NCBI RefSeq assembly: GCF_025602895.1
Contig: NW_026516445.1
Span: 1 to 40,400 of the forward strand
Reading direction: 5' to 3'
Source of the DNA: Polychytrium aggregatum
Lineage: Eukaryota; Chytridiomycota; Chytridiomycetes; Polychytriales
DNA length: 40,400 nucleotides
A program made the position numbers and the translations under genes. The notes beneath the pieces are model-generated. The model ran no database searches and was not told the origin of the DNA. It was given only the letters and a program-made list of their open reading frames with translations. Shown here piece by piece: positions 7,672 to 38,650 of this stretch (position 1 is its first letter; the number at the start of each line of letters is the position of its first letter).

Positions 7672-7735
7672 TGATGGATGATGGATGATGGATGATGGGT
7701 TATGGATTATGGATGATGGATGGTGGGTTATGGGC
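7672..7735. repeat. ATGGATG-type low-complexity repeat
   Basis: Runs of ATGGATG and variants. They supply several in-frame ATG codons upstream of the SUN gene start, which I regard as spurious. Confidence 0.7.
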
Positions 7736-7852
7736 TGTGTTTTCCAGGAAAATAGCTCATTGCCCGATTTGGATCGTGTGCTCGAATGCCGACCAAGGCG
7801 CGCGGCGCAGCAGTCCACTGCGCCACGGCGTGCCATACACGTGATACGAGAC

Positions 7853-10800
7853 ATGGGATTGGTCGCTCCTTTGCGCCGCTCTCCCAGGATCGCCATAACC
7901 ATCATCGCTATCACCCTCACAATCATCATCACCATCAGCATCACCCTAACAATCATCACCCACAATCATCATCACCATCATCACCATCATCATCACCTTC
8001 ACCGTCACCGTCACCGTCACTATCGCTCCGCACCATCGATGCCCTTGCCTTTGCTCGCCCCGGACACTTGCCCAAACTCGCCTCCATTCGTGCCGGTGCC
8101 GGTGCCTTCTGTGCCGTCATGTCCCTTGACTCACGAGCCACATCCAACGATATCATCGCCCGTTCTCTCTCAGACATCGCCCTCGATCCATCCCCCGGTC
8201 TCGATTGAAGTATCGCGCGATCCGCCGTCGCTATCCGAGCCCACCATCACCCCAACCCAGACCTCATTATTGCTTCAGACCACGGATGCATCTCCCGTCG
8301 TTTCTTGTGAAGATGCCGTTGCGACAGTCCCAGCGACTGCATTGCCTTCCACCGAGCCTGGAGACCCAGAGCCGAACCTGCCCAGCGCTCCAGGCATGAT
8401 TAGCCGCGATCCCATTCCCCACGAACTCAGCAGCACAGCAAGGCCAGCTTTGGCTACGACCGAAACTCCATCAGCAGCCCTGTCCGATGATGCCGATTCC
8501 CCGCAGCAGCCATATTCTAGCGTGGAGCCATCTTCAAGTGCAAATGGGCCAGCCATAGCCGATGTGACGGACACATTCGATCTGTCGTCTGTGCCCTCGC
8601 AAGCTTCCCCCACACCCATCGATACACCGCCTGACCCGACAAGCCTCTCCGAGGCATCTTCAACCGCATGCCTCGCCCATACCGACCTCAAGCCCTCTCT
8701 GTCGCACTCCGTGGACAGTTCGACCTCGACATCACATCACACCCATTCACCAATCTTGCCTTACAGCGACAACTCCACCACAGCCACATCCAAGGAGATC
8801 CTGACCGACCCGGTGAGGCCGTCTCAGTTCAGCGCCGAACCGCTGACCACACCCAGTGTCCCGGCTCGGGCAAGTTCAGCCGTCCCCGAATCGCCCTCGC
8901 CGCCTCCAGTGCCTCCAGCATGGATCCCTGAGCTCTCTCAGAAAATCTCCTCGGAGCGCTTCAACTATGCTTCTTTCGACTGTGGTGCCCTGATCTTGAA
9001 GGCCAATCGCGGAGCGACCTCGGTCAAGAATATCCTCAACTCTAAAAAGGACGACTACATGCTCAATCGGTGCGACTCCACTTCCAAGTTTGTCATTATC
9101 GAGCTCTGCGAGGAGATTCAGGTGGACTCATTCTCGCTCGCCAACTTTGAGCTCTTCTCGAGCACCATTCGCGACTTTAATGTCTATGGCGCCAGCCGGT
9201 ATCGCCCGGATCAGAACTCGTGGATTCCCCTGGGATCGTTTGTGGCAGTCAACTCAAGACAGGTTCAGGTATGTGTAGCCCGCCATGTGGGCGTATCATT
9301 CAACTGCAGGCAAATCCTCCGCACGAAATAGAGTGCCGGCTGCACTTGCTGTCATGGTGCATGTGAGAGGGCGGGCTACAATCTATGCTCTTGTCGCTGG
9401 CGTCGACCGGGCTTATCGCCAAGGTCGGCTCGCGGTTCAGGGTTAGCACCGGTCGTGCCTAGACTTGCCGATATACGTTGCCGGTTGGGTCTTGCCTGGG
9501 CTCTCACCCGGTCGCCCCTTCCGGCCGTTCCTTCCGTCCGCCCATAGACATTCAAAATCCGCAATCCCAACCCAGGGGGATGGTCGCGTTACCTCAAGTT
9601 TGAGTTTCTCACCCACCATGGCTCTGAATACTACTGTCCCCTCAGCTTCATTGCTGCCTACGGTGTCACCATGATGGAGGAATACAAGGAAAGCGACACT
9701 GCCGACGCTGGTGACTTGATTGACCCTCCAGCGCCTCCGCCTTCCTCCATTTGGGACATCCTTGATCTGCCTGTCAGTCCCCCCGAGGACACTGACGGAC
9801 CTGGGCGCCGTCGGATCTCGTTCGACCGCTCGTCATCGCCGTCGTCGCCGTTTACCCTCCAGAGTTTCTCGTCGCGGTTCCAAGACGCATTCAAGCGCAT
9901 CTCTAGCGGCGAAGGGAGCTTGAATGTACCTTCAATCTTTGATCCGTCGCCCGAGACTGCAGATGTCGACGGTAGCGTCTCACGGGAATCAGCCGATACA
10001 TCTGCAATGACCTCGGCAGGATCGAGCTCCATCGGCAGCGGAGGCAGCGGAAATGGCGCCAGCGGTGCCAATGGCAATGTTCCGTCCTCAAGTACCTCTT
10101 CTGAAAACGTCTTTCGGGCAATGAAGCGGCGCATCGATAGCCTGGACCGCAAGAGCGAGTTATTCGAGCAGTACATTGGCGAAATGGCCAAAGTCATGAC
10201 AAACGTGTTTGCCAAGCTCGACACAGGCTACCAGCAACAGCTTACCGAGACCCAGGCCAAGATGAACAGCACTCTGACGTTTTTACTGCAGAACATGGTG
10301 AGGTTCTCGTGCGGGATCGTGGTGGTGGTGGTGGTCCAAGGTCGATCGCTTTTGATAGAGCGGTGGTTGCCGAGCCCGGATCAGGCATCTGCATGCTACC
10401 AAGTCAAGTTGGTACTTTGGCCCGCTTGGAAACGGGGCGGTGTCATTGGCTCTTGACTTGTATCAAGCGTTTGGCACCCCCGGATGCCTGATGGGCTCTC
10501 GGAGAGCCAATGCGGAGCGCATTCGATCACTTGCCGGCGCAGGACATCATCCAAAGCAATCTAATGCCGTCTCTTCTATGCAGCATCGGCACTACGAGAA
10601 GACCTGGGGGGTGTCGATCGCCGAGCTCCGGTTGCAAAACGCGCAAATGTATACCGAGATCGAGGCGCTCCGTAACGAGGCAAGTCGTCTCTGCTGGTTG
10701 CTATCCCTACTGGTCCCGATTTAGTCTCTTATCTTGCACATCGCTACACAAACCCTGCCATGGTCCGCATCGCTTTGGGTCTCGCCATCATTCGTGTGTG

Positions 10801-14867: not shown

Positions 14868-15539
14868 GTCAGAAAGGATGAATATCCGAGGAGGGGGAGA
14901 AAACGGATGGAACGATGACGGTGCATATGCCCTGCCGATCGGTAAGGCAGATTCATTTACCGTTTGAAAAAGTGTGTTTTTCCAGCTCGACATGGCGCTG
15001 CAAGATTAGAGATGCGATGTAAGTCGCAGTGGCAGATGTCCAAAGGCGCGAAGATGGAGATCAGATGACGTCGAGGATGATCGAGAACGAGAGAAGTGTT
15101 TGACGACTTGATGGCGAGTGTCGGTCGAGGGCCCTGGGCACTGGGGCAGTGTGGTCGACGTGGCGCCGGGAATCGATCATCTCCGAGGAAGGAGCCGGAG
15201 AGTCGAGGGGTCTGGAGAACAGCCAGCGGCGCAGTCGACTTACCGATTCGAGGGGACAGAGACGGATGGATGGACGGCGGGTCAGATGAAGCGCAAGAAC
15301 AAAATCCCGAGCCAAAGAAACGCAAACGCCGAAAAGGCAGGAAAGGCGCAAGGCCGTGCGCAGCGCAGCGGCGCAGGGGAAAGGCCGGCGCAAGGAGCAA
15401 GAGCCTGGATCGATCCGGCTGGAGTGAGTCTCTCCGCCCCAAACAGCCCGTCCCTGGGTGGGTTCTGGCGGCTCTGCTTCCTCCATCGGCTGCTTCCTGC
15501 ACCGGCTGCTTCACCGCTGCCGTGACCCTCGGAGCCACA
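14868..15539. other. Divergent intergenic region
   Basis: It lies between NDUFA12 (minus) and the plus-strand gene at 15540. Open frames here have no protein-like pattern that I trust. It presumably contains both promoters. Confidence 0.5.
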
Positions 15540-17652
15540 ATGTCGCTCGACCCTCGCGACGGCCGCAGTAAAATGATCGAGCCTCCCGGTGGAAGCGGCG
15601 ATCGCTTTGGCCAACAAGTTCAAGCTAGCCACGCCTCTTGTCGTCCGGAAGCGATCCCCGCGAGCGAAACTTCTCCACCCGCTTCTCCAGTCTTCAGTAT
15701 TTCCAGGTCCCAAGTCCGCCAGCAGCTACATCAAATTGGTTGTGACAACGCTCTCCAACTCGATGACTCGGTTTTGGATGAATTTATCCAAGAGCTCAGG
15801 GTTGCATACGAGGCCGAGATGAAATGGGTTGATAGAGAGCTGGAATCCTTTCGGGAAATGAATCTTGCGAGCGAATCATGGCATGCCTCGCATAGTCAAT
15901 CTGGCGACGACCTTTATGGTTTGTATCGATCATGGCGCAGCTTGTATAGACATTCAACCTGACTCTAGAATGGGCGAGTGCGTGGTAGCCGCAATAGCCC
16001 CTGCCAATAGTGAGCTCTGTTACCAATTCTGGATATCGGTGCTCTGGACAAAGCCATGCAATTCGGCACCTGTGATGGACTTGCTCGATGGGAAGAACTG
16101 ACGTCGATTCTCGCTTGCTTCGAATACCAAAAACCTTGTTCTGGATCATAATGGGTCCGTTCCAGACGCTGGATTGGACATGTCTTGTCCTCAGACCAAC
16201 GACACTGCATGCAACATTCAGCAGCCACAAGGCCGTTTTGTCGAATCCGGCCGACCACCAGGCTCATCACCAATAGAAACCAACTTTGCCGCTTGTCAGA
16301 CTGATTCCTTTCACACAAAGAGCGGCTTGCCTCAGCCTCAACAGCCAACTTGGATCAAGACAAGGGCTGGTCATCAAATCCCGGACTTTGACTTGGATGA
16401 GGTGAACTCGGCGCCGCTGCCTCAGACTCCCCCACCGCCGGCCGGTGGAACAACATTGTATGGATCGAATGACGGGATTCCCCGGAGCGACCTTCGCGAT
16501 CCTGCTTCGTCAGGCGACACAATGGCGAGACATCAGCTATATCCCATGGAGTCGCTTCAAAGACCCTTGGCTCCTGCTGACTATGGTCGCAAGTTCCCAT
16601 TACCGTCGAGAGGCGTTCCATCGCAAGCAATTGAATGTGGATCGCAGCAACACGACGCCTACCCACAAGTCCGACGACGAACTCCCAATCCTCTCCTTTC
16701 ACTTGAAACAGAGCAAGGGTCCGAGAGACCTAGCTCAACTGCCTATGTCGATTTCAGCGCACCCACAAGCCGAGCCACTGCTCCAGTTACACACCATCTC
16801 AGTACATCAGCATCTGTGGGGCAACATGAACCGATTTCATCAGTGAATTATCAGCTGCCCAGTCCCAAGATGGATGCTCCGATTGAGAGCTTCTCCAGAA
16901 GCTTTTCTTCCTCAACTTCATCCGAGTCCATGCGCCTTCTCAAGGAAATAGAGATGGACATGCTGGCACGCGAGTCTGAATATCGTGTGCGCTTGACCGA
17001 TCTTGATTTGCGTCCAATCCACAGAAGGATCCGTCAACAGCAGGAGCGAAGAAGAGCAGCTAGCCACACACAGCAACTAATCGAGCCATTGGAAGGAGAC
17101 GTTGAGAGTTATTCTCCGCCCCGATATTCACCTTTTGAAAGATCCAACCGGCGGTCAGATGGTGCGAAGTGGATCTCAAGCTCCACCATCTCTCCCAAAC
17201 GCTATTCGACCAGTTTTGAGCCACTGGAGACGGCGCCACTGGAGACTGAGCCGTCGCGAACCCCAAAGTCTCACCAGGCAGCAAGGCAAATCAGCAGAGG
17301 ACCCAAAGCAAGAAATGGTGACGACGTAGCCCATGCACGAGAGCAAAGATCACAATTGCTGTACGATAAAAGTCATCAATATCCAGCGTTTGAATCGACA
17401 ACGAGGACAAAGACGAGCGGTCAACGGGTCCAACTATGGACATCACATGACGACATTGGCCAAGAATTAGGAGTAGGTCTCCCAAACGCTGTGCTGTATC
17501 TGGTGGCATTGCCAACGACTGCGCTCTCACTCTTACACATCTGCCACCGACGAAATAGCTCGGTGCGGAATCATATTCATCAAGTGCGCCAGTTTCACCA
17601 ACTTCGAGCTCAGCAAGCTCAAGTCATCATGGGAAAACATCCAAGAAACTGA
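15540..17652 (+). CDS. Hypothetical Ser/Pro-rich protein with an N-terminal HYLS1-box-like helix
   Basis: Exon 1 starts at ATG 15540 and runs to about 15921. It carries VRQQLHQIGCDNALQL and VLDEFIQELR, resembling the short conserved N-terminal helix of HYLS1-type centriole proteins (an L..LG spacing followed by LDEF..EL). A long downstream exon (about 16102-17652) is mostly disordered and rich in Ser, Pro, Gln and Arg, with one helical part (RLLKEIEMDMLARESEYR, then a basic RRIRQQQERRR). The joins between 15920 and 16165 are unresolved; a donor at about 15922 with an acceptor ending GCAATAG at about 15998 is one option. I did not find the C-terminal motifs of HYLS1, so the link to flagellar basal bodies is only a suggestion. 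Confidence 0.5.
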
Positions 17653-18237
17653 CTCGTCGGACGCGATGTATGTGTGCAAACGATAGTGCGGTAGCGAGAT
17701 CGCCGATAAAGCTCTTGACGCCACCTCGAGTGTGACGAGATGAACGCCAAGGCACTCCGAGAGCCATTTGTCGCTCTGAAGCTTTGAGCTTCGATTGCTA
17801 TAGCCGAGTAGGCGATGGCATCGGGGATTTATGTGGGTAGAATTGGAAGGCAAGGAGCAGGAGTTCGCATGGACTGCCATCGGACTTGCCGAAACATTGA
17901 CCCTTTGAATCAATCTACAATATCTCTCTGGAACAATAGACACCCCTCCAGCGGAGCCCGGGCGAGTCCCGAAGAAACACGACCCAGTCTCTCGATACCA
18001 TCAGCACAAAGCGAGATGGGATAACGACAAATTTCTCAAACGTTTATCTTGACGGCATGGCTAGTTCACTTGCATCAGGATGAGATCCAAGTTCAAGCCC
18101 CATCGCAGAATGCTTGGCCAAGTTCATATGACCTCGGAATGAAAACTTTGATCAGGTTTTGAAATTTGATGGACAAAGTATCGCTGCTGATGATCGATGA
18201 AATTGGCGAGGCTGTTGGAAAAATGCCGGGAGTGCAA
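17653..18237. other. Convergent intergenic region
   Basis: It separates the plus gene ending at 17652 from the minus gene ending at 18238. A minus-strand open frame at 17533-17943 lacks an ATG at its start and overlaps the end of the plus gene, so it is not called. Confidence 0.45.
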
Positions 18238-18791
18238 TCAGTAAGACGATAGCTTCTTGTTCACCTTGCGGCCTTCTGGGAAAATGAAACGGGACAGTGT
18301 CCCATTTCTGAAGTGCTTGGCGGTATTGAGTGCCTTGGGAAATGCCAGGTGTTCGTTTCGAAGGAGGAGACCAATGATGTTTGAGAGTGGTAGCTCCTTC
18401 CACATCGGGAACTCGAACTGGTAGCCCATGGTGGCATCAGCCTTGTCGGTAAACTGGGCAAGGTCGTGGGCACCGGTATTGAGGTGGGCATAGATACGGA
18501 TGACATCATTCTTGACGACGCTCGTGTCCTGGCAGAAGATGTGGATCGAGAGGGAATGGTACTTGTCATTCGTGGTCCAAAGAGTCCTCTCTCAGTCGCC
18601 AGGCTGCACTACAGTGGACTGGTTTCATCCTCTCATGGTCTTACCACATACGCTGGCGTGCCCCGGCGTCCCTGGGTCGGATCGAGGGTGGACCAGAAAG
18701 CTGCAGTGTGGCCATTTTCTTTCCTTTGGCGGCTGGAGAGGCGAACCTCTGCCCGTTTGGATCCAGGCCATTCGTCGCCTTTGCCATCCAT
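18238..18791 (-). CDS. Two-exon hypothetical protein, 165 residues
   Basis: Exon 1 (18645-18791, ATG at 18791) reads MDGKGDEWPGSKRAEVR and ends in GRRGTPAYV at donor GTAAGA. A 56-nt intron (18589-18644) follows, then exon 2 (18238-18588) with SLSIHIFCQDTSVVKNDV, IRIYAHLNTGAHDLAQF and FPMWKELPLSNIIGLLL. Both exons are in phase 0 and the intron has the usual size for this genome, which supports the model. The second half looks like a compact folded domain with a short basic tail (EGRKVNKKLSSY). No family was recognised. Its 5' end lies about 300 bp from the stop of the Sel1-repeat gene on the same strand. Confidence 0.65.
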
Positions 18792-19097
18792 TTGTCGGTA
18801 CCATGTGGCGTGGGATGGTCTGGATCGTGCTCGCCATCTATGGTTGCAGAACGAGTATCGACAGTGGTGATAGAGTGGTCATTGTCGAGTCATCGGATGG
18901 TTCTCCCGGTCGATCAACATCAGCGGTTCTTATGGGACAGCACTGTTGTATATTGGATGCATTGGATGTATTACTGTCGAATATCCTGTGGGGCTCTGGT
19001 GTCTGGGACGGATGATGGCAGTGCGGTTGCTTGGCTGCTTGCATGTTCAGTGTTACGAAATGGTAGTTTGGAAGTGGAACTTGAGAGGGCATCGGAA

Positions 19098-20681
19098 TCA
19101 AGGCCACTTACCGAGTTCTTTGAGGCTATTGATGGCATAAGGCCATCCATGGTCGGCCGACTTGCGGTACCAGAAAATGGCGGTGTCGATGTCTTGAGGG
19201 ACACCTCTGCCACCGTGGTAACAGTGGCCGAGCCAATCTTGTGCGTATCGATTGCCCTGCTCGGCCGACTTGCGATACCACTCGACTGCCTTGGTGTGGT
19301 CCTTGATGACACCATATCCATGGTAGCAGCAAAAGCCAACTATCCACTCTCCGTATGAGTTGTGCTGGTTTGCCGACTTGCCGAACCACTCGAATGCCTT
19401 CTCGTAGTCCTTCGATACTCCTCCACCATGGCGGTGGCACATTCCGATCCAAAACTGGCTGTCGCTGTGGCCGTCGTTGGCGAGTTGCTCAAATATGTCA
19501 GCTGCTTTTGCCTGGTCTTGTGTGGTTCCGAATCCATAGTACAGACATGCAGCCATCAGGTGCCTGCACAGCCAGCCTCGGTCCGATCCGAGCTGGCACA
19601 GCTGGAAGAACTTGCGGGATGTGCGTTGGTTGGACAAAATATCGTTCAGATATCCTGCCAGACTCTCGTCCTCCCCGAGCTTGAACTCATCCGATTCATT
19701 GTCTCGGATGATCTTGATGCCTTTCTGTTTATCGAGCTGGGTACCCCGGCCGAGATAGTGCATCCACCCAACCATGTGGGTGGCGATGGGTTTGATGATC
19801 GGATCGGTGGATTGGGTGATAACTTCCTGCCAGTGGTTGAGAGCAGCGACATCGCTCTGTTCGACATTGTGGCCAACGAACGAGAACCATCCTCGGAGGA
19901 ACACGATATGGAGTCGACCATCCTCGCTGCCCTGGTCGGCGGCCTTGGAATACCATTCGATCGCGTTGTTATAATCTTGCTCGACACCCTCGCCATTCTC
20001 AAAGTATTGGCCGAGGGCAATTTGCGCCCGAGGGATTCCACGATCTGCAAGATTGAGATACAGCTCGACGGCCTTGGTGTGATCTTTGTCGACCATGACA
20101 CCGTTGCGATAGCATTCGGCCAGGCGAAACTGTGCCATCGGATGTTGGGCTTGGGCGGCACTCTCCAAATGGTGGAATATCTGCTGACGGTTGGTGTACT
20201 CTTCAGGCTCATCGTCATCGTCTGTTTGTGAGTCGATCTCAGATTGCAGCATTCGAGCCAAGAGATACGAGGCAGCACCATTGCCCATATCGGCTTGATC
20301 TTCGAGCCAGGATCGGTCGGCTGTGACCGGATCGTCGCAATGCAGCGATATGGCAATCAAGTCGCTCGGTGTGAGACCGATTCGCATCTGTCCATCTGGA
20401 TTGCGCAAGCCTGCATTCTGGCACCAGCTGTGGAAGCGAGCCACCTTGGAGCTCAGGAGAGGCTGGACATGCCTACACACTCGGAGGAGAGCCTTGATGG
20501 AGCTGTGATCGAGGGCAAGCTGGAAGCTGTCGTTGCAGCATATGATGGTGAAGATATCTGGGCTGTGCTCGAGTGAGAATTGGGTGATATCGGGCATCGA
20601 CGAGGTTGCTCTGGTTTCAGCTTGAGCTTGGTGAGTGGGAGATGATGCGGTGGTTGAAGCAGGCTCGTTGATGCTGGCCAT
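19098..20681 (-). CDS. Sel1-repeat (SLR) protein, 527 residues
   Basis: A single frame from ATG 20681. The first 120 residues contain a BTB-like or F-box-like globular start (PDIFTIICCNDSFQLALD, then LRVCRHVQPLL). About eight Sel1-like repeats follow, each a helix pair with the A..LG..Y..G.GV..D...A..WY.KAA..G pattern; the clearest are QIALGQYFENGEGVEQD, WIGMCHRHGGGVSKD, IVGFCCYHGYGVIKD and WLGHCYHGGRGVPQD. Such solenoids act as adaptors in protein complexes. A frame-open extension upstream to 20873 exists, but the ATG at 20681 begins a sensible N-terminus. The C-terminus KELGKWP also contains a GTAAGT, so an alternative splice is possible but not needed. Confidence 0.85.
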   Translation of the reverse strand: MASINEPASTTASSPTHQAQAETRATSSMPDITQFSLEHSPDIFTIICCNDSFQLALDHSSIKALLRVCRHVQPLLSSKVARFHSWCQNAGLRNPDGQMRIGLTPSDLIAISLHCDDPVTADRSWLEDQADMGNGAASYLLARMLQSEIDSQTDDDDEPEEYTNRQQIFHHLESAAQAQHPMAQFRLAECYRNGVMVDKDHTKAVELYLNLADRGIPRAQIALGQYFENGEGVEQDYNNAIEWYSKAADQGSEDGRLHIVFLRGWFSFVGHNVEQSDVAALNHWQEVITQSTDPIIKPIATHMVGWMHYLGRGTQLDKQKGIKIIRDNESDEFKLGEDESLAGYLNDILSNQRTSRKFFQLCQLGSDRGWLCRHLMAACLYYGFGTTQDQAKAADIFEQLANDGHSDSQFWIGMCHRHGGGVSKDYEKAFEWFGKSANQHNSYGEWIVGFCCYHGYGVIKDHTKAVEWYRKSAEQGNRYAQDWLGHCYHGGRGVPQDIDTAIFWYRKSADHGWPYAINSLKELGKWP

Positions 20682-20928
20682 GTTGAATGTGGGATGGAGG
20701 AAACAGGGTGATGGAGATGGACAGGGGACAGAGGGAATTTGTGGCAAAGCAAGCCAAACAATGGCAGGCCATACACTGGCCATTGAACACACACACACAC
20801 GCAGTCCTGGCTCGATCCGATGGTTTGATGGCTGGAATCGATGTTCTTTGCACTGCCACAGGCACCGCCACATTCATCGAACATGAATCGAACATGGAAT
20901 CGAACCCCACAACACACACACACAGTGC
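20682..20928. other. Upstream region of the Sel1 gene with a (CA)n tract
   Basis: It contains a CACACACACACAC run at about 20790-20802 and a second one near 20912. It probably holds the promoter of the Sel1-repeat gene. Confidence 0.5.
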
Positions 20929-21702
20929 TCACAACCATGTCCATCCTAGTTCCCTCATTTTCTCATTCCCTTGCATCTCGTAGCACACCAGAACCAACAC
21001 CAGCTTGATGGTCGACCAAGATGGAATCCAGATTGCAGAGGTCATGGCCAAGATCACTTGCGCGATGCTTCCACCAGGGTGTTGTGGTTCAAGTATGGAG
21101 GGGCAAGCAATGCAGTGACTCCTGGGAGGAGGAGGGGTACTGGACGAAGTTGAGACCAAGGGTCGTCCTTGTCCCAGGCTATGGGATAGAACTGGGTCGA
21201 TGGTCGATGAGAGTGAGATGAGTGACTCGGCCATGAAATGCAGTCTTGGACCGAAGTTGGTTCGTGAATGTAATCTCGGTTCTCTTGGAATGCTGCGACT
21301 CTGGTCCTCATAAGGGATCGCATCAGATGATCGCGTGGGGTTTCGTTATTTCTGGTATTCGTGGTCAGCGCAGATGCAGTGAGGCCAGTGACAGCAGTAA
21401 GTTGGAGCATGTGGTTGAATCGGTAAGGATGAACCAGGCAGTGGTAGACAGGATGGTGATCCATGAGGAGACGACAAAGCAATGCACTATACGGCTTTAT
21501 CGTACGCCATATAAATGAGATCGGTCGCATGACCACTTGGATCAACGAGCGTCCGCGTGTGTTGATGCAGCACTGGGAGATCATATCCACCCATGCGGGT
21601 TGATGAAATGCGAGGAATCGATGGCAAGGGCGTCAGTGTCAACCACGATCGGGTGTCGAGGAACGAGGCGATCTCGCTCCAGATCTCAAGTGACAGTTCC
21701 AT
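20929..21702 (-). CDS. Possible minus-strand gene with an F-box-like start, model unresolved
   Basis: ATG 21702 opens with MELSLEIWSEIASFLDTRSW, which fits the L-P-E-[IL]-x-x-x-I-x-x-[FY]-L-D pattern of F-boxes, although the Pro is replaced by Ser. The frame stops at 21487. Two overlapping frames continue: one at 21054-21590, and one near 20929-21234 that ends in a hydrophobic SWSTIKLVLVLVCYEM. I could not find splice sites linking them with confidence. It could be a multi-exon gene, a frameshifted one, or a pseudogene. Confidence 0.3.
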
Positions 21703-22870: not shown

Positions 22871-23625
22871 ATGGACTCGCAGCGTAGCATCGCCCTGCAG
22901 ACCCTCCAGGCAAAGACGCCCGACCACGCCGAGGTCTTGGAAGAGAGCATCTATCGCTATGCCACCACAACCTACAAGGGCGTGTGCAGCTGGATCAACC
23001 CGCAGTTCCGAGACGCATACAAGTCCCGCGCCATCATGATGCTATCGAACCTGGAGGCCATCGTCGGCATGTTCAACTCGGGTGCCATTCAAGACCCTGC
23101 CAACTGGACGACCTGACACACCAGAGCCTTCGTCCGGACGCTTGGCTGGTGCAAGACCAGGGGGCCACTGGCACGACAGCGGCAGCAGCGGCAAACGGCA
23201 AGTCCGGAGGAGCCGACGGCCAGATGAAATGCACCGACTGTGCTCGCATGGGCAGAGACTCGTATAACACCGAGTTCATCCTGGCCCAGCATCGCTCTTT
23301 GGACGAGGCCAGCACCATATACGCCCACTGCTCCGCCCACATCGCATTCCATCGCATTCAATCGCACACCATCATACCAAATGCAAGTCGTCACTCGTAT
23401 CACTCTCCCAGATTGCCAAGAAGAGCGCACTTGGCAATGCCCAAGAGAATACCACATCCATGCATTCCAGACCACCCGGCCCACAACCACAGAGGAGCTT
23501 CATCGTGGCCTTGGTCAATGCTGGGAATGCTGGATGCGTCTCTTCCATGGCAAAACTGGCGTACCACTACGCAAAGGGAGATGGCGTCGAGAAGAACGAC
23601 GGCATCGCATCCAAGTGGCTCATGA
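22871..23625 (+). CDS. Short TFIIS-like protein (central domain plus zinc ribbon), frameshifted
   Basis: From ATG 22871 the product begins with a helical part resembling the TFIIS central (polymerase-binding) domain: VLEESIYRYATTTY, FRDAYKSRAIMMLSNLEAI and SGAIQDPAN. A one-base shift near 23103 moves the frame to LDDLTHQSLRPDAW, an Ala/Gly linker and then a zinc-ribbon-like MKCTDCARMGRDSYN...AQHRSLDEASTIYAHC. The RSLDE segment matches the acidic hairpin (RSADE) that TFIIS inserts into the RNA polymerase active site. The second metal pair reads C-x2-H rather than C-x2-C. The N-terminal LW domain of full TFIIS is absent. The frame stays open to 23625, overlapping the Sel1 gene, so the real end is probably near 23360. 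It could be a degenerate copy or a small specialised factor. Confidence 0.5.
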
Positions 23626-24638
23626 AGGCTTGCGAGCATGGCCATCTACCCTCGCAGTACACACTGGGAGTTCGCTTCCAGAATGGTATTGGTCTCCCAA
23701 TCGACCATGTGAAAGCCGCCAGGCTACTGACTGGGTGTCTGGAGAAGCAGCCCAATGGATCAATCATCCCGATCGGGCCCCATCTCACCAACAGCATCCT
23801 CGACCAGCAAGATCCTGTTTTGGCTGCCAAGGTGTATTCCATCCTGGCCGCGAGGAACAACGCCGAGTCACAGGTTCGTCTTGGTCGATGCTACCGAGAT
23901 GGCATCGGAGTCCCCAAGAATCACCAAGAAGCATTCTTCAACTTCCGAAAGGCGGCCGAAGTGAAGAACCTCACTGGCTGCTTCGAGTTTGGAATGCGGC
24001 TACCTCAATGGCATTTATGTCGACAAGGACTCGACCAGGTGCCTCAAACGGCTTGTCCTCGCAGCCGATGGTGGTCTGGCCTGTGCTCAGAATGGCATTG
24101 GCACCCTCTACTATGACAGTATCGGCATCGTCAGAGACAGCCACATTGCAGTGGTATGGTTCAAGAAAGCCGTCGATCAAGGACATTCGAGCGCACAGTA
24201 CAACCTCACCTGTGCGTACTTTGACGGTGATGGTGTAGAGAAGGACAACGACAAGGCATTCGAGTTCTTCTCCAAGGCAGCTGATCAGTCATTTGCTGAG
24301 GGCATCTCGGGACTCGCAACATGCTACCAGTCTGGCCGTGGTACAGTTGCTCCATTATCATGTCGTTCGAATTGCACACTCAAGCAGCCGCACTTGGGTC
24401 AGAGTTCTCGTTTGAGGTGATCCGCTTCAAGTACCTCAATGGCTTTGACGACAACCAGGTCAACGCCATCATCAGCGATATCCCAAAGGAGCTTTCCCCA
24501 GCGATGCGACACCTGGCTCGCCGATATTCCGATGTTGTGGGTGTCACCAGAAACCCAGTGGTGGCCAAGGAACTGTACGCCAGAGCAGCTGGACTTGGCG
24601 ATTCTGATGCAGAGCTCGCCTTGCGCCAGATGGAATGA
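23460..24638 (+). CDS. Sel1-repeat protein with two compensating frame breaks
   Basis: ATG 23460 starts about eight Sel1-like repeats: KLAYHYAKGDGVEKN, TLGVRFQNGIGLPID, RLGRCYRDGIGVPKN, CGYLNGIYVDKD, GIGTLYYDSIGIVRD, LTCAYFDGDGVEKDN, GLATCYQSGRGTV and RHLARRYSDVVGVTRN. The frame shifts +1 near 23994 (in repeat 4) and back -1 between about 24345 and 24370 (in repeat 7). The repeat register is kept across both points, so the gene either carries two assembly indels or is lightly damaged. It ends KELYARAAGLGDSD...RQME at 24638. Unlike the larger Sel1 gene at 19098-20681, it lacks an N-terminal extra domain. Confidence 0.7.
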
Positions 24639-26203: not shown

Positions 26204-29200
26204 ATGCTCCTGTGGATCATCGTCATATCCGCCCTCGTCGGACTATTGTCCCTCTGGTGGCTGCACCGGAAGAAGCAAGTACCAGGTCAGTGGAGATCGT
26301 TGGTTGCTGAGTCGATTTTGATCAATAATAGCCGTGAAATAGTTTCATTCGAATCGGCGGCCATGGATTGTGATGAATCAGGATGAGTTCTTGGCCATTT
26401 TCTCTCGGCGACGTGGTCCGGAATCGAACTCCCGCCGCCGGGGTGATATCGGATCGAACCACGAGTTCAGTGCGACTCGATTCACCTTGGCTTGAGTGAT
26501 ATTGGCTCGATTCGTATCGGCTTGTCATGTGACCTGATATTCACTCATTCGACATCGAAAACAACTCCAAAGTTAACACCAAGGAACCCAGCGACATTCA
26601 ATCCAAGATCGAAAACACCTCTAATGAAGACGAAGAGACCGAAGAGACTGAAGGATCTAAAGCTTTTGATGAATTCATAAGGAAATGTGGACTCGATAAA
26701 ATGAAGCATCTCTTCATCGCAAATGGATTGGACACCATCGAGTTGGCAAGCTTGACCTCGGCTTTGATCCTCGGTACTTTGACTCGCATTGCTAATTAGT
26801 GCGCCAGCTCCTTACACTAGATGACGGAGAGATGAAGGACATCAGCTTGAAGATTGGCCATGTCAAAACCCTCAAGAATGCGCAGGGAAGGCATCGTCAA
26901 GCTTTTGCCTCCACCTCCAGTTCCAATCTGGCACCAGCATCCACTTCGATTGTCCAGGAAGCGAGTGTGACTGAAGGTAGAGAAGCAACTCCCGAACTCA
27001 AATCAGACGACAAAAGGGCAGGAAATGAAACGCCACTGCATACCACTCTCCCAACTCCACCTCCCGAATATCAAGCCAGTGTCAACGATACCATTCAAAC
27101 AGAGTCAATCAAAACAAGCACCACGAGCGAGCGTCCACCAAGCAATAGCTCTAATGCGTTCCATAAATTTCTTGAGGACAATGTACTAACTAAGTACAAG
27201 GGCCGTTTTGAGGAGCGCGATTACGACACCGTCGATGTGGTATGTGTGCTTTGTCATTCATAATGTTAACCAAGTGCGTTGCTGACTCTTGAACTCCACA
27301 GCTCCTTGCTCTCGATGATAACCAGATTGCCAAGATCGGACTGAATGATGGTGCCACCATGAAGCTCAAGATTGCACAACAAAAGCATGTTTCACCCAGG
27401 CTCGATATACCAAAGGAGTCACCAAGGCTGACAGAACCCACTTTTGTTCCGTCCGAGCGTCTCCTGGATCCAAGCGAGTACACTCCGGTAAAACCGACCC
27501 TGAATTGGAAGTGCAAAAAACATTATGTGAGGCACGATGTCTTCATCAGGTACGTGGTGATTCGTCAGTTTCTGCTCCATTTCATAATTCTAATAAGTGA
27601 TTCCACAGCTATCGGGTCCGAAGTGACACAATCAATGCGACCACCTTGCATGGGACCCTCGCCGTCCCTCCGCGTGGTCAAACAGCAATCCATCCCTATC
27701 TGGACACTGTTTGTCTCAGTGATGGAATGGATTGGGCGCAAGGCTTTATCAACGGCCTCTATCGATCGAATGTGATTGTCCTGATCCTCTCAGAGGCTGG
27801 ACTCGAGCCACTCAATGCTCATCATAAGCACGATAACCAGTTTCTCGAGGTACGCAGGCTTGCATCACACTATTCCATCGACTTTGAACCTCACTATATT
27901 GTGTCTATAGATCCAGCATGCTCTGAAGAGAATGAAGGACGGTGAGAAGAATGGACAATCTGTCATCATCCAGCCCATCTTCATGTGGTCCACCAGAGAG
28001 TTTGATGGAGAAACACTCCACATGAAGTATTTCCCATCCGTCAAAGAGTTCCCCGACTACCCTCCGATCCATAAGAAGAGTCCGTTGTTCGATGGCAAGC
28101 CAATGACGATCCGTGAAACCTTTGCCGAGCTGTTGAAGCTGCAGGCACTCGATGCTGCCGATGGGAACGCTCTCAGGAGGTATGGATTTCGCTGTCGCAT
28201 GGGATCTTGTTGTCACGAACTCACACGATCAATGTTCGATAGGTTGGTGCCCAATATTCGCGAACTCATAATGAAGTCTTCCATTGCAAACAAGCAAGGC
28301 GATGTGTACACACAAGGTGGTAGTGTGATCCTCACCGCTGAACAAGAATCGCTCCTGCGATCCCTCCTCAGTCCCATCGACTCCACTTCCGACAGAAGGG
28401 CACTCGAGGATCTGTATGTCGAGAGCACCCGCCAGTGGCTGTTCGACCAGACCACCGACTGGGTCAACCAAGACACCACCGACACTGCCCTGTAGGTCAA
28501 TGCCGTTGCTGGTGTGGGCAAGTCTGTTGCTGCCGCCCAGATCGCCAACATCCTCACAGCCAGCAACCAGCTGGTGTCGGCGCTGTTCCTCAAGTACAAC
28601 GACACTCGCAAGAGCGATCCACGAGTGGTGTTGAACACCATCGCATATGGACTGTGCAAGTGGCACTCGCCGATCGGCCGCAAGCTGCTCGAGGCTGGCC
28701 ACACCAAGGACAGTCTCGACAAGATGAGCATCCCGGACCTGTTCAAGGCCGTGATTGCCGATCCACTCGAAGCCATCGGCGAATACAGACCCAAGGGATC
28801 GGTGATGATCCTGGTGGATGCACTCGACGAGTGCTCTCCGCGCGACCAGCTGCTCAGTCTGCTTGCTTGGCGCTTCGTCGAACTGAACAAGACCCGTCCG
28901 TGGCTCAAGCTGCTGCTGACATCCCGACCCGAGGACGACATCAAGGCAGCATTCGATGGAGTCCCGACCAAGACAATCGAACCCTCGAGCGAGGAGAACA
29001 TCCGTGACCTCGAGGTGTACATCCATCACCGACTGCGAGTGTATGACACTCTCACTGACTCGGACCGCACCGAGGCAGTCGCCATCCTGCTGGACCAGTC
29101 CAAGACATTCGTGTGGATCAACCTGATCCTCAACACCGTCGACGCAGCATCCACGGACGGCCCAGTGACACTCGCCACGATCAAGGACATCAACGACAGC

Positions 29201-30376
29201 GCCGCCGATGTCGGGCAGCTGTATCACAAGACATTCGCCAAGATCCACTCGCAATCGAGCCACCCGGCCGAGTTGGTCACGGTGGTGTCGGCCATCGCCA
29301 CGGCCCAGTCGATCCTGACCCCGCAGATCATCGCCGATGTGTTTGGACTCGAGATCGGCGTCGTTCGCGAGTGTCTCAAGAGCCTCAGTCTGGTCCTCGA
29401 TCCAGGCGCCAATAGCTTGGGTCCCCGAGGCAGCCAGTCCACCAACACCGAGGTCAAGTTCAACCACAAGTCGGTGGCGGACTATCTCCTCGGCGACACA
29501 TCGGCTGGCCATCCGTGGCATGTATCGACCTCGTTCCACACGGTGTTTGCCAAGGGATGTCTCGGAGCGATCCTCTCGCACGAGCCAGTGGTCAACATCT
29601 GCGAGATCTACGAGTTTCACGACAAGATCCCAGACCTCGAGGACAGGGTCGCAGCCAAGATCACACCGTCGCAGCGATACAGCGTCGCCCACTGGATCAC
29701 ACACTTTGTGTGGTGTGTGGAAGGAGTGGCCGAGTCGAGTCCGGTGTGGCAGTTGACCGAGATGGTCGATGTGGCAGCGGTGCTCACTCGGTTCGTCAAG
29801 ACGCATGTGTTCTTCTGGCTCGAGTGTGGGTCGCTCACACATGTGGTCGAGCCGATCATCGGGCAACTGGCTGTGCTCCGAGGAGTGATCACCAAGGCAC
29901 CCAGCACCACTGTCGACGACACCACGAAGGAACTGGTCAAGGACACGTATCGATTCATCCGCGAGTTTGCCGATCCGATCATCAAGAGTGCACCACAGGT
30001 GTACAACTCGGGGTTTGCATTCACACCGAAGGAGACGGCGATCTACAAGACATATGCCACCCAACTCGAGGACAAGATCCCGTTCCTGGTCACGACGGGT
30101 CCAGCACCCACCTGGGATCCGAGTGAAATGACAATGACAGGGCACACCAACTGGGTGTACTCCGTGGCTATCTCGCCAGATGGCAAATGGATTGCATCGG
30201 GATCAAGCGACAGGACCATCAAGGTGTGGGACTCTACCACGGGCCAGATGAAGCACACCATCGAGGGACAACATAATCCTGTACTTTCCTTGTCTATTTC
30301 GCCAGATGGCACAACAATCAAATCTGGTGATTGGTTTGGTAACCAGATCATCTGGGTATGTCGTGATAAACAGTAG
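26204..30376 (+). CDS. NLR-like receptor: membrane anchor, SAM, SAM, TIR, NACHT, partial WD40; interrupted by an amber codon
   Basis: Exon 1 (26204 to about 26285) encodes a signal anchor (LLWIIVISALVGLLSLWW). SAM1 spans the GC-AG intron 26746-26807 (FIRKCGLDKMKHLF...IEL-LLTLDDGEMKDI). SAM2 spans intron 27240-27301 (FLEDNVLTKYKGRF...VDV-LLALDDNQIAKIGL). TIR follows introns 27550-27608 and 27850-27910: HDVFIS-YRVRSD, CLSDGMDW, SNVIVLILSEA, and DNQFLE-IQHAL with a candidate catalytic Glu. After intron 28180-28242 come a helical linker and NACHT: Walker A GVGKS at 28511-28525, Walker B ILVDALDEC at 28808-28831, and LLTSRPEDD. A winged-helix-like region leads to about two WD40 blades (30127-30376). 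TAG at 28493-28495 replaces the Trp expected before VNAVAGVGKS; both flanks are in one frame. The exon 2 acceptor is not fixed. The role is inferred: ligand-triggered assembly of TIR, possibly cleaving NAD. Confidence 0.8.
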
Positions 30377-32620: not shown

Positions 32621-32730
32621 AAATCCTCGTCTTGTTTTCGTCCTGTTTGTCCTCTTTCTAGATCCTCAAGCTGGATCCCGCCTCTCTTGCCGACCGACTC
32701 TCCTCTCTGTCCCTGGAGCCTGCCCCTGCC

Positions 32731-33552
32731 ATGAGCAACCCCCGCCCACTTCCGGAAGCCTTCCTCAAGACCTTCCGTGCCCCAGTGTTTACTGGGAAGA
32801 GCCGCTCCTCCTCGGTGGAGGACTGGCTGCAGCAACTCGAGGACTACCTCGATGCTGCCCAAGTCGCCCCCACCCACCACATCGTCGCAGCCAAGCTCTG
32901 CTTGAAGGACCAGGCGTACCGTTGGTACCGCCGCCAAGGGTTCGACGAGCAGAGCGAAGGTGTGTTTGACGACTTCAAGGACCGCCTCCGTCGCCGCTTC
33001 GGCAGCCCCAATGCTGAACTTATTGCCCGTGACAAGCTATACTCTCTCGTGCAGCGTGGTTCCGTAACCCGCTACATCGAGGAGTTTGAAGACCTCTCCT
33101 CCCAGATTGAGGAGCTGGGCTCTGCTGACGCGATGTACCTCTTCCAGAAGGGCCTCAAGCCCAAGATCAGAGAGTACATCGCCAGCAACCCTGATGCCCG
33201 CAAGTCCCTGGACGTGATGATGGACGTTGCCGAGAACCTCGACAACGTCCAGTACCATGGCCGCCAGTTCTACCCGCAGCTGGCAGGCGGCCATCGGTCT
33301 CATCACGTCCCAGCCCGTCCGCCTCGCCCGGCCCCGCCCGCAAGACCCATGCCTGAGCCCATGGACGTTGACGTCAACGCCATGGAGGCTCGTGGCCCTC
33401 CCCGCTCCCGGTTCCAGCAAGCTGCCACTGTCTCCCCCAAGGACAGACAGAAGCAGGAGGACCTCCGCCATGGTTCCTGCTTCTTCTGTCACCGACCGGG
33501 ACACCAGGCCAAGGAGTGCCCCATGAAGTCGGGAAACGGCCGACCCTACTAG
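32731..33552 (+). CDS. gag: Gag polyprotein, element A
   Basis: 273 residues from ATG 32731. A capsid-type region ([51 protein letters not shown]) is followed by a Pro-rich linker and a single zinc knuckle [14 protein letters not shown] (C-x2-C-x4-H-x4-C). It is identical in protein sequence to the copy in element B. Gag forms the virus-like particle of the retrotransposon. The stop TAG lies inside the hairpin of the frameshift signal. Confidence 0.95.
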   Translation: MSNPRPLPEAFLKTFRAPVFTGKSRSSSVEDWLQQLEDYLDAAQVAPTHHIVAAKLCLKDQAYRWYRRQGFDEQSEGVFDDFKDRLRRRFGSPNAELIARDKLYSLVQRGSVTRYIEEFEDLSSQIEELGSADAMYLFQKGLKPKIREYIASNPDARKSLDVMMDVAENLDNVQYHGRQFYPQLAGGHRSHHVPARPPRPAPPARPMPEPMDVDVNAMEARGPPRSRFQQAATVSPKDRQKQEDLRHGSCFFCHRPGHQAKECPMKSGNGRPY

Positions 33553-34238: not shown

Positions 34239-35523
34239 TAGGTCAGCCATAATGGCTCGATAGGACTGGAACATGAACGGCACCCCAGCTCGGGCTTTTC
34301 CGAAATTCAGTGTCAGCATCGGTTTCGAACCGGCAACCTCCAGACTGGTATGCAGACACCTTAAACGAACTCGGCGAACTGGGGCACTGGCAGGGGACTC
34401 GGAACGGCGGATGAAACCCTTGGACAAGTTCTCTTGGATGTAGGTGTGGAGGGCGTCCATCTCCGGCTTGGAGAGGTTGTAGACGGGCCCAAACGACGGA
34501 GACGCACCTTCGACCAACGGGATCGTGTGGTCGTAAGGGCGGTGCTGGGGGAGCTTGTCGGCCTCGGACTTGGAAAACACCTTGGCAAAGGACGAGTACT
34601 TGGAGGGGACAGAGGGCTCGGCCTTGGGCTTGGCTCCAGCGTCGACGGAGCAGAGGGACAGGACTCGGGCAGCATCCAAGAGGAACACTTCCAGGCCTTC
34701 CTTCTGGACGGCGTGCTGGAAGGGGATGCTGCCGATCAGGCTGACGCTGGGCAGGGACTGGGTCTTGGTCTTGGTCTTTGGGACGGCAGGAGGCAAGGCA
34801 GGACTGGGCTTGGGCACGGCAGGAGGCAAGGCAGGGAGGATCTCGGGCTCGGCTGGGGACTCGGCTGGGGACTTGGCAGGAACAATCTTGGACTCGGGCA
34901 GGGACACGGCAGGCTCGGCGGGGACCTCAGCAGGGGACTCGGCAGGGCTGGAACTAGAGGACTGTGGCTCGGGAGAGAACGGGGAGGCCAAACTGTGGAT
35001 AGAGGTGCAAGGCAAGAAAATAGAGTCATGGTGCCAGTCAAAGTAGGGTTTGTGTTTCTTGATCCAATCCATACCCAAGATGATCGGGTATGAAGCCAAG
35101 GGAATCAGCGCGAACGAGATTTGTTCATAGTGGCTGATGCCTGTGATCATAGAAACACAAACTCCAAGACTAGACTCCATCGAAGAACCATCGGCAAGAG
35201 TGATGACGAAAGAAGTTTCAAAGGTGGGGAGAGCGTGGGTTGCGGCGAATCCAGTGTCCATAAACGAAGTAACCGCGCCGGTATCGATCATGGCGGTTGC
35301 CCGTATGGACTCTGGACCGCACAGCAGAGTCACAGCGAGGGAGGGCTGACGTTGGATGTCAGGCTCGGGAGGCGAAGACGAAGAGGCAAGAGCGGTGGAA
35401 ACGGTGGCAATGGTGACGGGGGCAAGATGGCAAAAGGCAGAAGAGTGATTTACCGTGGAGACATTTACAGGAGGAAGATTTATGACATGATTGACGCCTA
35501 GGAAAGCTCCTCCGACCTTTTCT
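34236..35523 (-). pseudogene. Pol of element C: protease and start of reverse transcriptase, then a foreign join
   Basis: The pol frame overlaps the end of gag in the -1 register (LCLEKVGGAFLGVNHVIN) and reaches the protease: ATAMIDTGAVTSFMD (D-T-G active site) and YPIILGMDWI. A long Pro/Ala/Glu-rich linker follows, then the RT N-terminus (YDHTIPLVEGASPSFGPVY, LSKGFIRRSESPASAPV). Instead of the expected L-F-V-K-K, the reading switches to unrelated sequence containing a tRNA-like patch, then FMFQSYRAIMADL and a stop at 34236. The rest of RT, RNase H and integrase are missing, so the copy cannot move by itself. Confidence 0.85.
34312..34384 (-). other. tRNA-like patch at the pol deletion junction of element C
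   Basis: The minus strand has an A-box-like TCGCCGAGTTCGTTTAAGG (34359-34377) and a perfect B-box GGTTCGAAACC (34321-34331), 46 nt apart as in a tRNA gene. GGAGGTTGCCGG before the B-box also looks like a variable loop and T-stem. The acceptor and anticodon stems do not pair, so it is a relic or a truncated copy, not a working tRNA. Confidence 0.4.
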
Positions 35524-36613
35524 AGGCAGAGAAGTTTTCCTGGTCGTCAAGTTTATTCACATCAACGACAGCCAAAGAAGCATCGATGGCAGCCAAGCGG
35601 GAGGATGCCTTATTGGGGCAGCGAAGGGCAATGTGCCCTTCCTGCTTGCAATAAAAGCAGCGGTTGGCAGCACGGAGGGCGGCCTTGTCCTCGGCGGTCA
35701 GCCTGCGAGCGGAGGCCTGGCTGAGGTCCATGGGCTGCGGAACGTTGAAGGCTTGAGCGGGGCGAGGAGGAGGAGCAGGAGCGAAGGGACGAGGAGCCGG
35801 ACGGAAAGGGAGAGGAGCCGGACGAGCAGGAGCAGGAGCAGGAGCGGAGCGGTGGTTGGGACGGCGGGAGCGTTGGTCCTCCTGGCGGTTGTCGATGGCG
35901 ATCGCCGCTTGCATGAGATCTTCGAGGTTGTCGAAGGAGCGGCGGGAGAGTTCGTCTTGGACCGAGGGCTTGAGTCCACTCTCGAAGTGGAACATGAGAG
36001 GGTCTTGGGACCAAGTGACGAGGTGGACGGCTTGGCGGCGGTACTCGGCGGCATAGGCGGCGGCGGAGGTGACTTGGTAAAGCCTGACCATCTCGCGAGC
36101 AGCGGCGATGGTGGGCTGGACCTGGCCAAAGGCAGCACGGAGCCACTCGGAGAAACCGGCAAAGTCACGGATGGCAGGGGGAGAGCACTCGGGGTCTCTC
36201 TCCAACTGATCGATGTACGGCTGCATGTAGTCTGCAGCAGTACCATCGAGATAGGATAAGGCGTAGAACACCTTATCCCTTTCAGTCTGGAAGAGGGGAG
36301 GGTTGGACACGAAGGCCAGTCTGCAATGCGAGAGGAAGGCATTGCAGCGGCTCGGGTCCTTACCAGAGAAGCGATCAGGGGGACCTATCTGCCTGGTGGC
36401 AGAGTTGCGACCAGCAGGGTTGTCCTCGGGGTCTTGGGCAGGATCATCGACGTCGTCAGGAACGCCGAAGTAGGGGCGACCTGCACGACGGATCGGGGCG
36501 GGAGCGGGAGCAGGAGGAGGTAGCTGGGCCTGGTAGCTGCGGAGGGCCTCCTGGACACTGGCTGCGACAACTTGGCGGACATCCTCTTCACGGCGAGCCA
36601 GGACCTGGTCCAT
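35522..36613 (-). CDS. gag: Gag polyprotein, element C
   Basis: 363 residues from ATG 36613, though the frame is open further upstream without an ATG. It has a helical N-terminus, a Pro/Ala stretch and a Ty3-type capsid (PDRFSGKDPSRCNAFL, VFYALSYLDGTAADYMQPY, FSEWLRAAFGQ, YAAEYRRQAVHL), then an Arg/Pro/Ala-rich linker and the zinc knuckle CFYCKQEGHIALRC. Only the general plan is shared with Gag of elements A and B; the sequence belongs to a different Ty3/gypsy lineage. Pol follows in the -1 frame, but no canonical slippery heptamer was found; GGAAAAC before the stop is a weak candidate. Confidence 0.9.
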   Translation of the reverse strand: MDQVLARREEDVRQVVAASVQEALRSYQAQLPPPAPAPAPIRRAGRPYFGVPDDVDDPAQDPEDNPAGRNSATRQIGPPDRFSGKDPSRCNAFLSHCRLAFVSNPPLFQTERDKVFYALSYLDGTAADYMQPYIDQLERDPECSPPAIRDFAGFSEWLRAAFGQVQPTIAAAREMVRLYQVTSAAAYAAEYRRQAVHLVTWSQDPLMFHFESGLKPSVQDELSRRSFDNLEDLMQAAIAIDNRQEDQRSRRPNHRSAPAPAPARPAPLPFRPAPRPFAPAPPPRPAQAFNVPQPMDLSQASARRLTAEDKAALRAANRCFYCKQEGHIALRCPNKASSRLAAIDASLAVVDVNKLDDQENFSA

Positions 36614-36861
36614 ACGATCGGTGATGCGGTTGAGCGCATCATCCTGATCGTGGAGGAACTTGGAAAAGTCCTGGAGAGAACGGGCGTTCTCGGCGGACTG
36701 GATAATTGTGACACGATTGAGGATAATCGAGGTATAGCCGTGAGCGAGAGCTTTCTTACGATACCGATTTCATCCAGAACGGATGAGAACTGACTGCTGT
36801 AGCACCGTGGGAAAGATTGTAGTGTATCGAGGGAGTAGTCCTGGGTTACTGTGTGTGTGTG
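36614..36861. other. 5' leader side of element C and a (GT)n tract
   Basis: On the minus strand this should be the leader of element C, but no LTR end or primer site is recognisable. A GTGTGTGTGTGTGT run at 36850-36863 abuts the next LTR. Confidence 0.4.
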
Positions 36862-37718: not shown

Positions 37719-37828
37719 AAATCCTCGTCTTGTTTTCGTCCTGTTTGTCCTCTTTCTAGATCCTCAAGCTGGATCCCGCCTCTCTTGCCGACCGACTCTC
37801 CTCTCTGTCCCTGGAGCCTGCCCCTGCC

Positions 37829-38650
37829 ATGAGCAACCCCCGCCCACTTCCGGAAGCCTTCCTCAAGACCTTCCGTGCCCCAGTGTTTACTGGGAAGAGC
37901 CGCTCCTCCTCGGTGGAGGACTGGCTGCAGCAACTCGAGGACTACCTCGATGCTGCCCAAGTCGCCCCCACCCACCACATCGTCGCCGCCAAGCTCTGCT
38001 TAAAGGACCAGGCGTACCGTTGGTACCGCCGCCAAGGGTTCGACGAGCAGAGCGAAGGTGTGTTTGACGACTTCAAGGACCGCCTCCGTCGCCGCTTCGG
38101 CAGCCCCAATGCTGAACTCATTGCCCGTGACAAGCTATACTCTCTCGTGCAGCGTGGTTCTGTGACCCGCTACATCGAGGAGTTTGAAGACCTCTCCTCC
38201 CAGATTGAGGAGCTGGGCTCTGCTGATGCGATGTACCTCTTCCAGAAGGGCCTCAAGCCCAAGATCAGAGAGTACATCGCCAGCAACCCTGATGCCCGCA
38301 AGTCCCTGGACGTGATGATGGACGTTGCCGAGAACCTCGACAACGTCCAGTACCATGGCCGCCAGTTCTACCCGCAGCTGGCAGGCGGCCATCGGTCTCA
38401 TCACGTCCCAGCCCGTCCGCCTCGCCCGGCCCCGCCCGCAAGACCCATGCCTGAGCCCATGGACGTTGACGTCAACGCCATGGAGGCTCGTGGCCCTCCC
38501 CGCTCCCGGTTCCAGCAAGCTGCCACTGTCTCCCCCAAGGACAGACAGAAGCAGGAGGACCTCCGCCATGGTTCCTGCTTCTTCTGTCACCGACCGGGAC
38601 ACCAGGCCAAGGAGTGCCCCATGAAGTCGGGAAACGGCCGACCCTACTAG
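37829..38650 (+). CDS. gag: Gag polyprotein, element B
   Basis: Same 273-residue product as in element A, with the zinc knuckle [14 protein letters not shown]. The two copies differ only at a handful of silent sites (for example GCA/GCC, TTG/TTA, CTT/CTC), so both were copied recently under selection for Gag. The stop TAG is at 38648-38650 inside the frameshift stem. Confidence 0.95.

Follow-up and report, generated by a model that had tools for sequence, protein, structure and literature searches.

What kind of gene occupies positions 26204-30376 of a 40,400-nucleotide stretch of the Polychytrium aggregatum genome, and is it a working one? The stretch, hereafter the window, makes up an entire contig (C161). 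In line with this origin, HSP90 from the same genome matched the P. aggregatum protein at 100% identity over its length, compared with about 81-87% for the following named chytrids listed; the two top-scoring rows were longer plant proteins (72-73%). The species is classed in the Chytridiomycota, order Polychytriales. The initial annotation had read the gene as a NOD-like receptor (NLR) in which a membrane anchor, two SAM domains and a TIR domain precede a NACHT ATPase and WD40 repeats. This domain order, on a single strand, was confirmed. An intact, working gene was not found at this place, as an in-frame TAG that had been overlooked splits the frame. The locus is an allele, interrupted by a stop, from a large family of NLR receptors in a chytrid. 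The architecture is real, and what gives it interest is the family as a whole, an extensive chytrid repertoire of TIR-bearing NLRs that combine a SARM1-like TIR with SAM domains.

The gene structure (Table 1) was the same in eight copies, that of the window and seven others. All six introns proposed by the initial annotation have GT-AG borders in the seven other copies (7/7), but the donor of intron 2 is GC in the window copy alone, which had escaped notice. The anchor encoded by exon 1 has a mean hydropathy of 2.4 over 19 residues. Three copies (C374, C125, and C24) are nearly identical to the window (97.8-98.8% over 26204-29800) and four (C68, C57, C301, and C46) are distant, with about 77-81% identity over most of the gene and less in the 5' part of C46. 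When spliced alike, C24, C57, C46, and C374 gave stop-free proteins of 1573, 1701, 1669, and 1192 residues, respectively, and C125, C68, and C301 were stop-free over the approximately 1000 residues read. Collinearity over 15500-21500 was found with C374 (95%) and in part with C125 (90%) and C24 (95%); on this basis, C374 appears allelic to C161 and the others appear to be segmental copies. Chance open frames were ruled out by the conserved splice borders and by region-specific ratios of nonsynonymous to synonymous change (dN/dS).

Table 1. Coordinates of the SAM-SAM-TIR-NACHT-WD40 gene and its parts in the window
Feature	Position	Strand	Basis or remark
Whole gene	26204-30376	+	Seven exons, six introns; borders set on the window copy and compared with seven other copies
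Exon 1: start codon and hydrophobic anchor	26204-26285	+	Donor kept in 7/7 other copies
Exon 2: acidic linker and first part of SAM1 (from ~26656)	26573-26745	+	GC donor after the exon in the window copy
Exon 3: remainder of SAM1 (to ~26888), linker, start of SAM2 (from ~27150)	26808-27239	+	Splice-border and Pfam comparison
Exon 4: remainder of SAM2 (to ~27388), linker, first TIR strand	27302-27549	+	Splice-border and Pfam comparison
Exon 5: TIR core, ending with the codon (27847-27849) of the conserved FLE-motif Glu	27609-27849	+	Borders, alignment, profile
Exon 6: remainder of TIR region	27911-28179	+	Borders, alignment
Exon 7: linker, NACHT-type ATPase, C-terminal helical part, two WD40 units; TAG inside	28243-30376	+	
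In-frame TAG	28493-28495	+	Not in three near-identical copies
Walker A motif AVAGVGKS	28502-28525	+	Sequence
Walker B motif MILVDALDE	28805-28831	+	Sequence
Two WD40 units (contracted array)	30127-30355	+	Pfam, motif count

The window frame contains 565 codons (anchor-SAM-SAM-TIR) up to the TAG, which lies two codons ahead of the motif that we take to be Walker A (as we take MILVDALDE to be Walker B), and is then open for another 626 codons (NACHT-WD40). The TAG is missing from C374, C125, and C24, and among the 102 NACHT matches listed by a genome search with the NACHT part, only the window copy had an internal stop. A location of the TAG inside a further intron was rejected, as the three near-identical copies read through the exon without a stop. 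Judged from its frame, the window copy could probably yield at most the anchor-SAM-SAM-TIR part and is unlikely to be a working receptor. That the stop arose from faulty assembly or sequencing of a small haplotig, with the window gene really intact, is improbable; such an error would fit a 40.4-kb contig collinear with C374, but the window differs from C374 at many positions of the gene, several of them common to C24, and for this reason represents a distinct allele. The GC donor, and a short WD40 array like that of C374, also speak against such an error. The differences from C374 and C125 are concentrated at 28276-28610, where many letters of the window equal those of C24, and this pattern suggests a gene-conversion tract around the stop. 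It is very improbable that the stop yields a functional short form, i.e., a membrane-anchored SAM-SAM-TIR protein without NACHT that would serve as helper or decoy. The stop does fall downstream of a complete SAM-SAM-TIR part, but intron 2 has the GC donor, no second NACHT match among the 102 carries such a stop and the long untranslated remainder would favor decay of the transcript.

The SARM1-like nature of the TIR domain, which the initial annotation had placed on a NACHT-WD40 chassis, was upheld by profiles. A profile of ten TIRs (three from the P. aggregatum genome and seven from other chytrids), searched against solved structures, had SARM1 as its best TIR matches (structures from 4.5e-9), with weaker hits to Caenorhabditis elegans tir-1 (6.9e-6) and to a plant TIR (6.5e-5). 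When the profile was built from nine P. aggregatum TIRs only, it retrieved 17 SARM1 sequences (9.9e-6 to 0.0019) and no other TIR from the solved structures; three VCAM-1 rows at 0.03 were listed besides SARM1. SARM1 was also first among the TIR rows (0.03) in a single-sequence search with P0003, a Rhizophlyctis rosea protein. The glutamate of the FLE motif aligned with a SARM1 glutamate, which we take to be the catalytic one, and was kept in all 22 sequences read (13 plus nine).

Both SAM domains were recognized, each close to a cut-off when taken alone. The window protein up to the stop matched SAM_2 over the Pfam cut-off in two stretches (E = 6.7e-6); on its own, SAM1 reached 20.7 bits against a cut-off of 20.5, but SAM2 fell slightly under its cut-off (22.8 against 23). 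The N-terminal part of C57 matched SAM_1 at 2.4e-9, and all eight SAMs scanned, which came from the window and from six further places and included four rows joined at approximate borders, matched both SAM_1 and SAM_2 at E ≤ 0.1. The comparison with the tail of SARM1 made in the initial annotation holds for the order, as two SAMs precede a SARM1-like TIR, but not for the SAM sequences, which are closer to those of Eph and Caskin (profile match 6e-8). SARM1-like SAMs were rejected, with the SARM1 SAM at E = 1.0 in the profile search and single-sequence searches that were weak, one with a non-SAM top row. Since by profile the SAMs do not resemble those of SARM1, and since about 90 residues separate them, the SAM-SAM-TIR arrangement may have been assembled independently of SARM1.

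The ATPase of the window matched NPHP3_N (E = 1.4e-20) and was unlisted at E ≤ 1e-3 for the classic NACHT model, PF05729. Over its full length, C24 matched WD40 in nine stretches (4e-112) and NPHP3_N (2e-27). The tripartite layout of an NLR, with effector, nucleotide-binding domain and C-terminal repeats, was present in stop-free C24, C57, and C46, with a full-length Pfam scan in the case of C24. The WD40 unit has 42 residues, and motif counts gave nine units in C24, 11 in C57, 10 in C46, and two each in the window and C374. With a strict motif that skipped a few units, serial units were 55-74% identical in C24 and 81-93% identical in C57 and C46, except for the last pair (38 and 40%). Positions 4, 5, 7, and 23 were the most variable in all three arrays, which thus have internally conserved repeats with few variable positions, more weakly in C24. 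No PADLOC model matched either the sequence downstream of the stop or protein P0002.

Selection was evaluated region by region as dN/dS (Nei-Gojobori) for the pairs among C24, C57, and C46. Between C24 and C57, the ratio was 0.18 for the anchor, 0.23 for the acidic linker, 0.23 for SAM1, 0.12 for SAM2, 0.11 for the TIR, 0.31 for the NACHT, 0.51 for residues 731-1100, and 0.59 and 0.94 for the two later linkers. The corresponding values for C24 and C46 were 0.09 (anchor), 0.39 (acidic linker), 0.50 (SAM1), 0.12 (SAM2), 0.12 (TIR), 0.31 (NACHT), and 0.75 and 0.55 (later linkers). In the comparison of C57 with C46, SAM2 was identical, SAM1 was saturated and the ratio was 0.15 for the TIR and 0.06 for the NACHT. 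The anchor ranged from 0.08 to 0.18 in the three pairs and the two later linkers from 0.45 to 0.94 overall. The ratio was lowest in the TIR, SAM2 and the anchor, and SAM2 and the TIR were more strongly purified than the linkers. Synonymous distance varied strongly along the gene, which suggests segment exchange between copies.

A WD40-sensing NLR whose NACHT and SAM domains would cluster a SARM1-like TIR is the reading that we favor, with some reserve. It starts from the gene structure, domains, family, conservation, selection and stop observed here; membrane location, oligomerization, enzyme activity, ligand sensing and an immune or allorecognition role would be added by analogy, with SARM1, plant TIR-NLRs and HNWD biology supplying analogs for each functional step. 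Several observations weigh against this reading. The TIR of the window copy remained below the Pfam threshold (TIR_2 at 0.027 for the protein and 0.0031 for the domain alone), as did that in the N-terminal part of C57 (7.8e-4); Pfam support for the TIR, claimed from the sequence of the window, thus comes from the family, in which nine of nine TIRs of the genome matched TIR_2 at E ≤ 0.1 (best 3.2e-7). Single family TIR sequences had no significant TIR match among structures, so the SARM1 signal needs a profile. The proposition that any TIR looks SARM1-like was rejected, as the TIR of L029 (C386:1072842-1073114) listed Cat1 (0.016) and one TIR domain protein (0.023) rather than SARM1, but that control was a single-sequence search and not a profile, which makes the SARM1 comparison uneven. 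L029 is a different TIR gene and matches TIR_2 better than any other place in the genome (1e-15). SAM1 was less constrained in one comparison (0.50, C24 with C46).

The strongest point against transferring the chemistry of SARM1 lies in the TIR pocket, where the likeness suggested by the initial annotation extends to the FLE glutamate and ends four residues before it. The residue there is tryptophan in the aligned SARM1 and asparagine in all 22 family sequences. Passages of PMC7075850 stress the importance of the SARM1 glutamate and describe the tryptophan as ligand-binding together with it. Because of this replacement, NAD+ hydrolase activity of the family is uncertain. It is conceivable, though rather doubtful, that the TIR is catalytically dead or weak and acts as an assembly adaptor, with clustering of NACHT and SAM domains building a scaffold that recruits TIR or SAM proteins. 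Such a role would agree with the invariant asparagine, with SAMs being interaction domains and with the many TIR proteins in the genome, but the invariant glutamate and the place of the TIR among the most constrained regions argue against it.

The favored reading gains weight from the consistency of the family, from the WD40 variation concentrated at four unit positions and from the TIR-NACHT pairing in related chytrid proteins. The TIR exon as query had 119 matches (E ≤ 0.001), all free of internal stops. Strong TIR exons were present at 94 places with 47 different scores. On the same strand, 91 of the 94 were followed by a NACHT match no more than 1.8 kb away, and 62 were preceded, at up to 900 bases, by a match to the exon carrying the SAM tail, linker and first TIR strand. 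These associations used 94 of 119 TIR rows (25 weaker than E = 1.5e-12 were dropped), 93 of 102 NACHT rows, and 54 of 56 and 38 of 50 rows of two other listings after removal of fragments, duplicates and remote rows. The counts are of places rather than genes, many being alleles or recent copies (HSP90 has a single full-length place), and the SAM tail was counted by exon match, with the Pfam scan covering only some of the SAMs. The form with anchor and two SAMs was modeled in eight copies. At least one SAM was read at each of L017, L024, L049, and L050, in stretches too short to exclude a second, and none in the stretch read at L021. We give very little credence to the family being a selfish or transposon-borne repeat rather than a set of receptors. 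Groups of TIR exons with equal scores, one of 16 places, and retroelement genes nearby would suit such a repeat; purifying selection that follows domains, structured WD40 variation and the lack of stops in the 119 TIR matches and in all but one of the 102 NACHT matches speak against it.

Retroelement-like and other genes lie near members of the family. Upstream of the SAM-TIR-NACHT gene at L050, which belongs to the group of 16 places, a frame on the minus strand (123-603) resembles, by eye, a non-long-terminal-repeat reverse transcriptase and is presumably one. The window contains genes like retrotransposon gag or Ty3 capsid at 32662-33552 (+) and 35522-36769 (-), and an open frame at 37760-38650 (+) is almost the same as the first. 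Sel1-repeat genes adjoin the NLR at 19098-20873 (-) and 23268-24116 (+). Across the genome, 10 of 41 places of a Sel1-related family (41 of 60 rows used) have a strong TIR exon no more than 10 kb away, compared to about 1.2 expected; the window locus and the copies collinear with it account for four of the 10. Farther away, a Sad1/UNC (SUN) domain is encoded in two halves, at 7682-9331 and 9548-10456 (+), with what seems to be an intron between them. No tRNA genes were detected in the window.

Related proteins occur in other chytrids. A length-limited protein search with the SAM-SAM-TIR region as query, in which the best 7998 candidates were scored, gave one protein, from R. rosea. Polychytrium proteins were missing from the match list though the database contains Polychytrium HSP90, and repeat masking during annotation is a plausible reason. 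The R. rosea protein as query retrieved nine proteins including itself, four with WD40, from genera that we take to be chytrids. The window family has the features by which chytrid TIR-NACHT proteins are grouped, a TIR with the DNxxLE signature followed by an NPHP3_N-type NACHT. It shares this TIR, the NPHP3_N-type ATPase and WD40 repeats with hypothetical proteins of Borealophlyctis (P0004), Nowakowskiella (P0005), Obelidium (P0006), and Siphonaria (P0008) but differs in its SAMs, since no SAM appeared in the family lists of these proteins (N-terminal pieces for P0004 and P0005; the top 25 families out of 49 and 52 for P0006 and P0008, respectively). Residues 18-60 of P0004 (Borealophlyctis nickersoniae), ahead of the TIR, had a weak PB1-like match below the cut-off (E = 0.16); this stretch, at the place of the SAMs in the window family, is possibly another self-associating domain. 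In P0003, a TIR-NACHT protein, ZZ zinc fingers of MIB1, KCMF1, and p62 were matched by the C-terminal part (residues 686-811), in place of WD40.

Plant TIR-NB-LRR receptors carry the TIR N-terminal to the NLR ATPase and form large families. The window family resembles them in both respects but has a NACHT-type ATPase and WD40 repeats in place of NB-ARC and leucine-rich repeats, and the plant receptors lack SAMs. With SARM1 and TIR-1, an NAD+ hydrolase, it shares the SAM-SAM-TIR order, the TIR profile match and the aligned glutamate; it differs in the NACHT and WD40 downstream of the TIR, in the sequence and spacing of the SAMs and in the asparagine. At E ≤ 10, no ARM model was matched N-terminally in C57 or in the window copy. 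The same N-terminal parts matched no HET family at E ≤ 10, and the anchored SAM-SAM-TIR takes the place that the HET domain has in the Podospora HNWD proteins (HET-E, HET-D, and HET-R), which are alike in the effector-NACHT-WD40 layout and in internally conserved WD40 repeats. Such repeats are described for HNWD genes in sections of PMC12881547, as is the typically low repeat number of inactive het-e alleles. Amphioxus, an animal, likewise combines these modules by twos or threes, as TIR-SAM, TIR-NACHT and TIR-[NB-ARC]-WD40 genes, but no protein with SAM, TIR, NACHT and WD40 is named in the consulted portions of PMC2575513. Choanoflagellates have SARM1 homologs that retain the glutamate, according to parts of PMC6040629.

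The initial annotation knew of no fungal protein with this order. Neither the SAM-SAM-TIR-NACHT-WD40 order nor the size of the family was found in the accessible portions of the open-access literature searched, and to that extent the order may be called undescribed; TIR-bearing NLRs of Chytridiomycota are, however, already in print, as excerpts of PMC9815663 mention both these and SAM_Ste50p at fungal NLR N-termini. A 2014 survey, in the portion consulted, found no NLR in chytrids (PMC4986451).

In an intact protein, the N-terminal anchor would hold the receptor at a membrane and the array of about ten similar WD40 repeats would recognize a ligand by a small number of variable positions on its surface. 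Ligand binding would cause the NACHT ATPase to oligomerize, and the oligomer, aided by the SAM domains, would cluster the SARM1-like TIRs. The clustered TIRs might then act on NAD+ or a related nucleotide, leading to cell death or a signal.

We suggest, tentatively and as a possibility that we would not put at even odds, that this chytrid has a TIR-NLR repertoire on the scale of plant TIR-NB-LRRs with an effector of the SARM1-type SAM-(SAM)-TIR, a SARM1 executioner under NLR control, and that truncated alleles like the window copy may serve as anchored SAM-SAM-TIR helpers or decoys. The invariant asparagine beside the invariant glutamate offers a sharp test of TIR chemistry. If the TIR is active, NLR control over a SARM1-like enzyme would have been established in fungi as well, and the saprobe P. 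aggregatum would offer tractable material for studying how SAM, TIR, and NACHT were joined.

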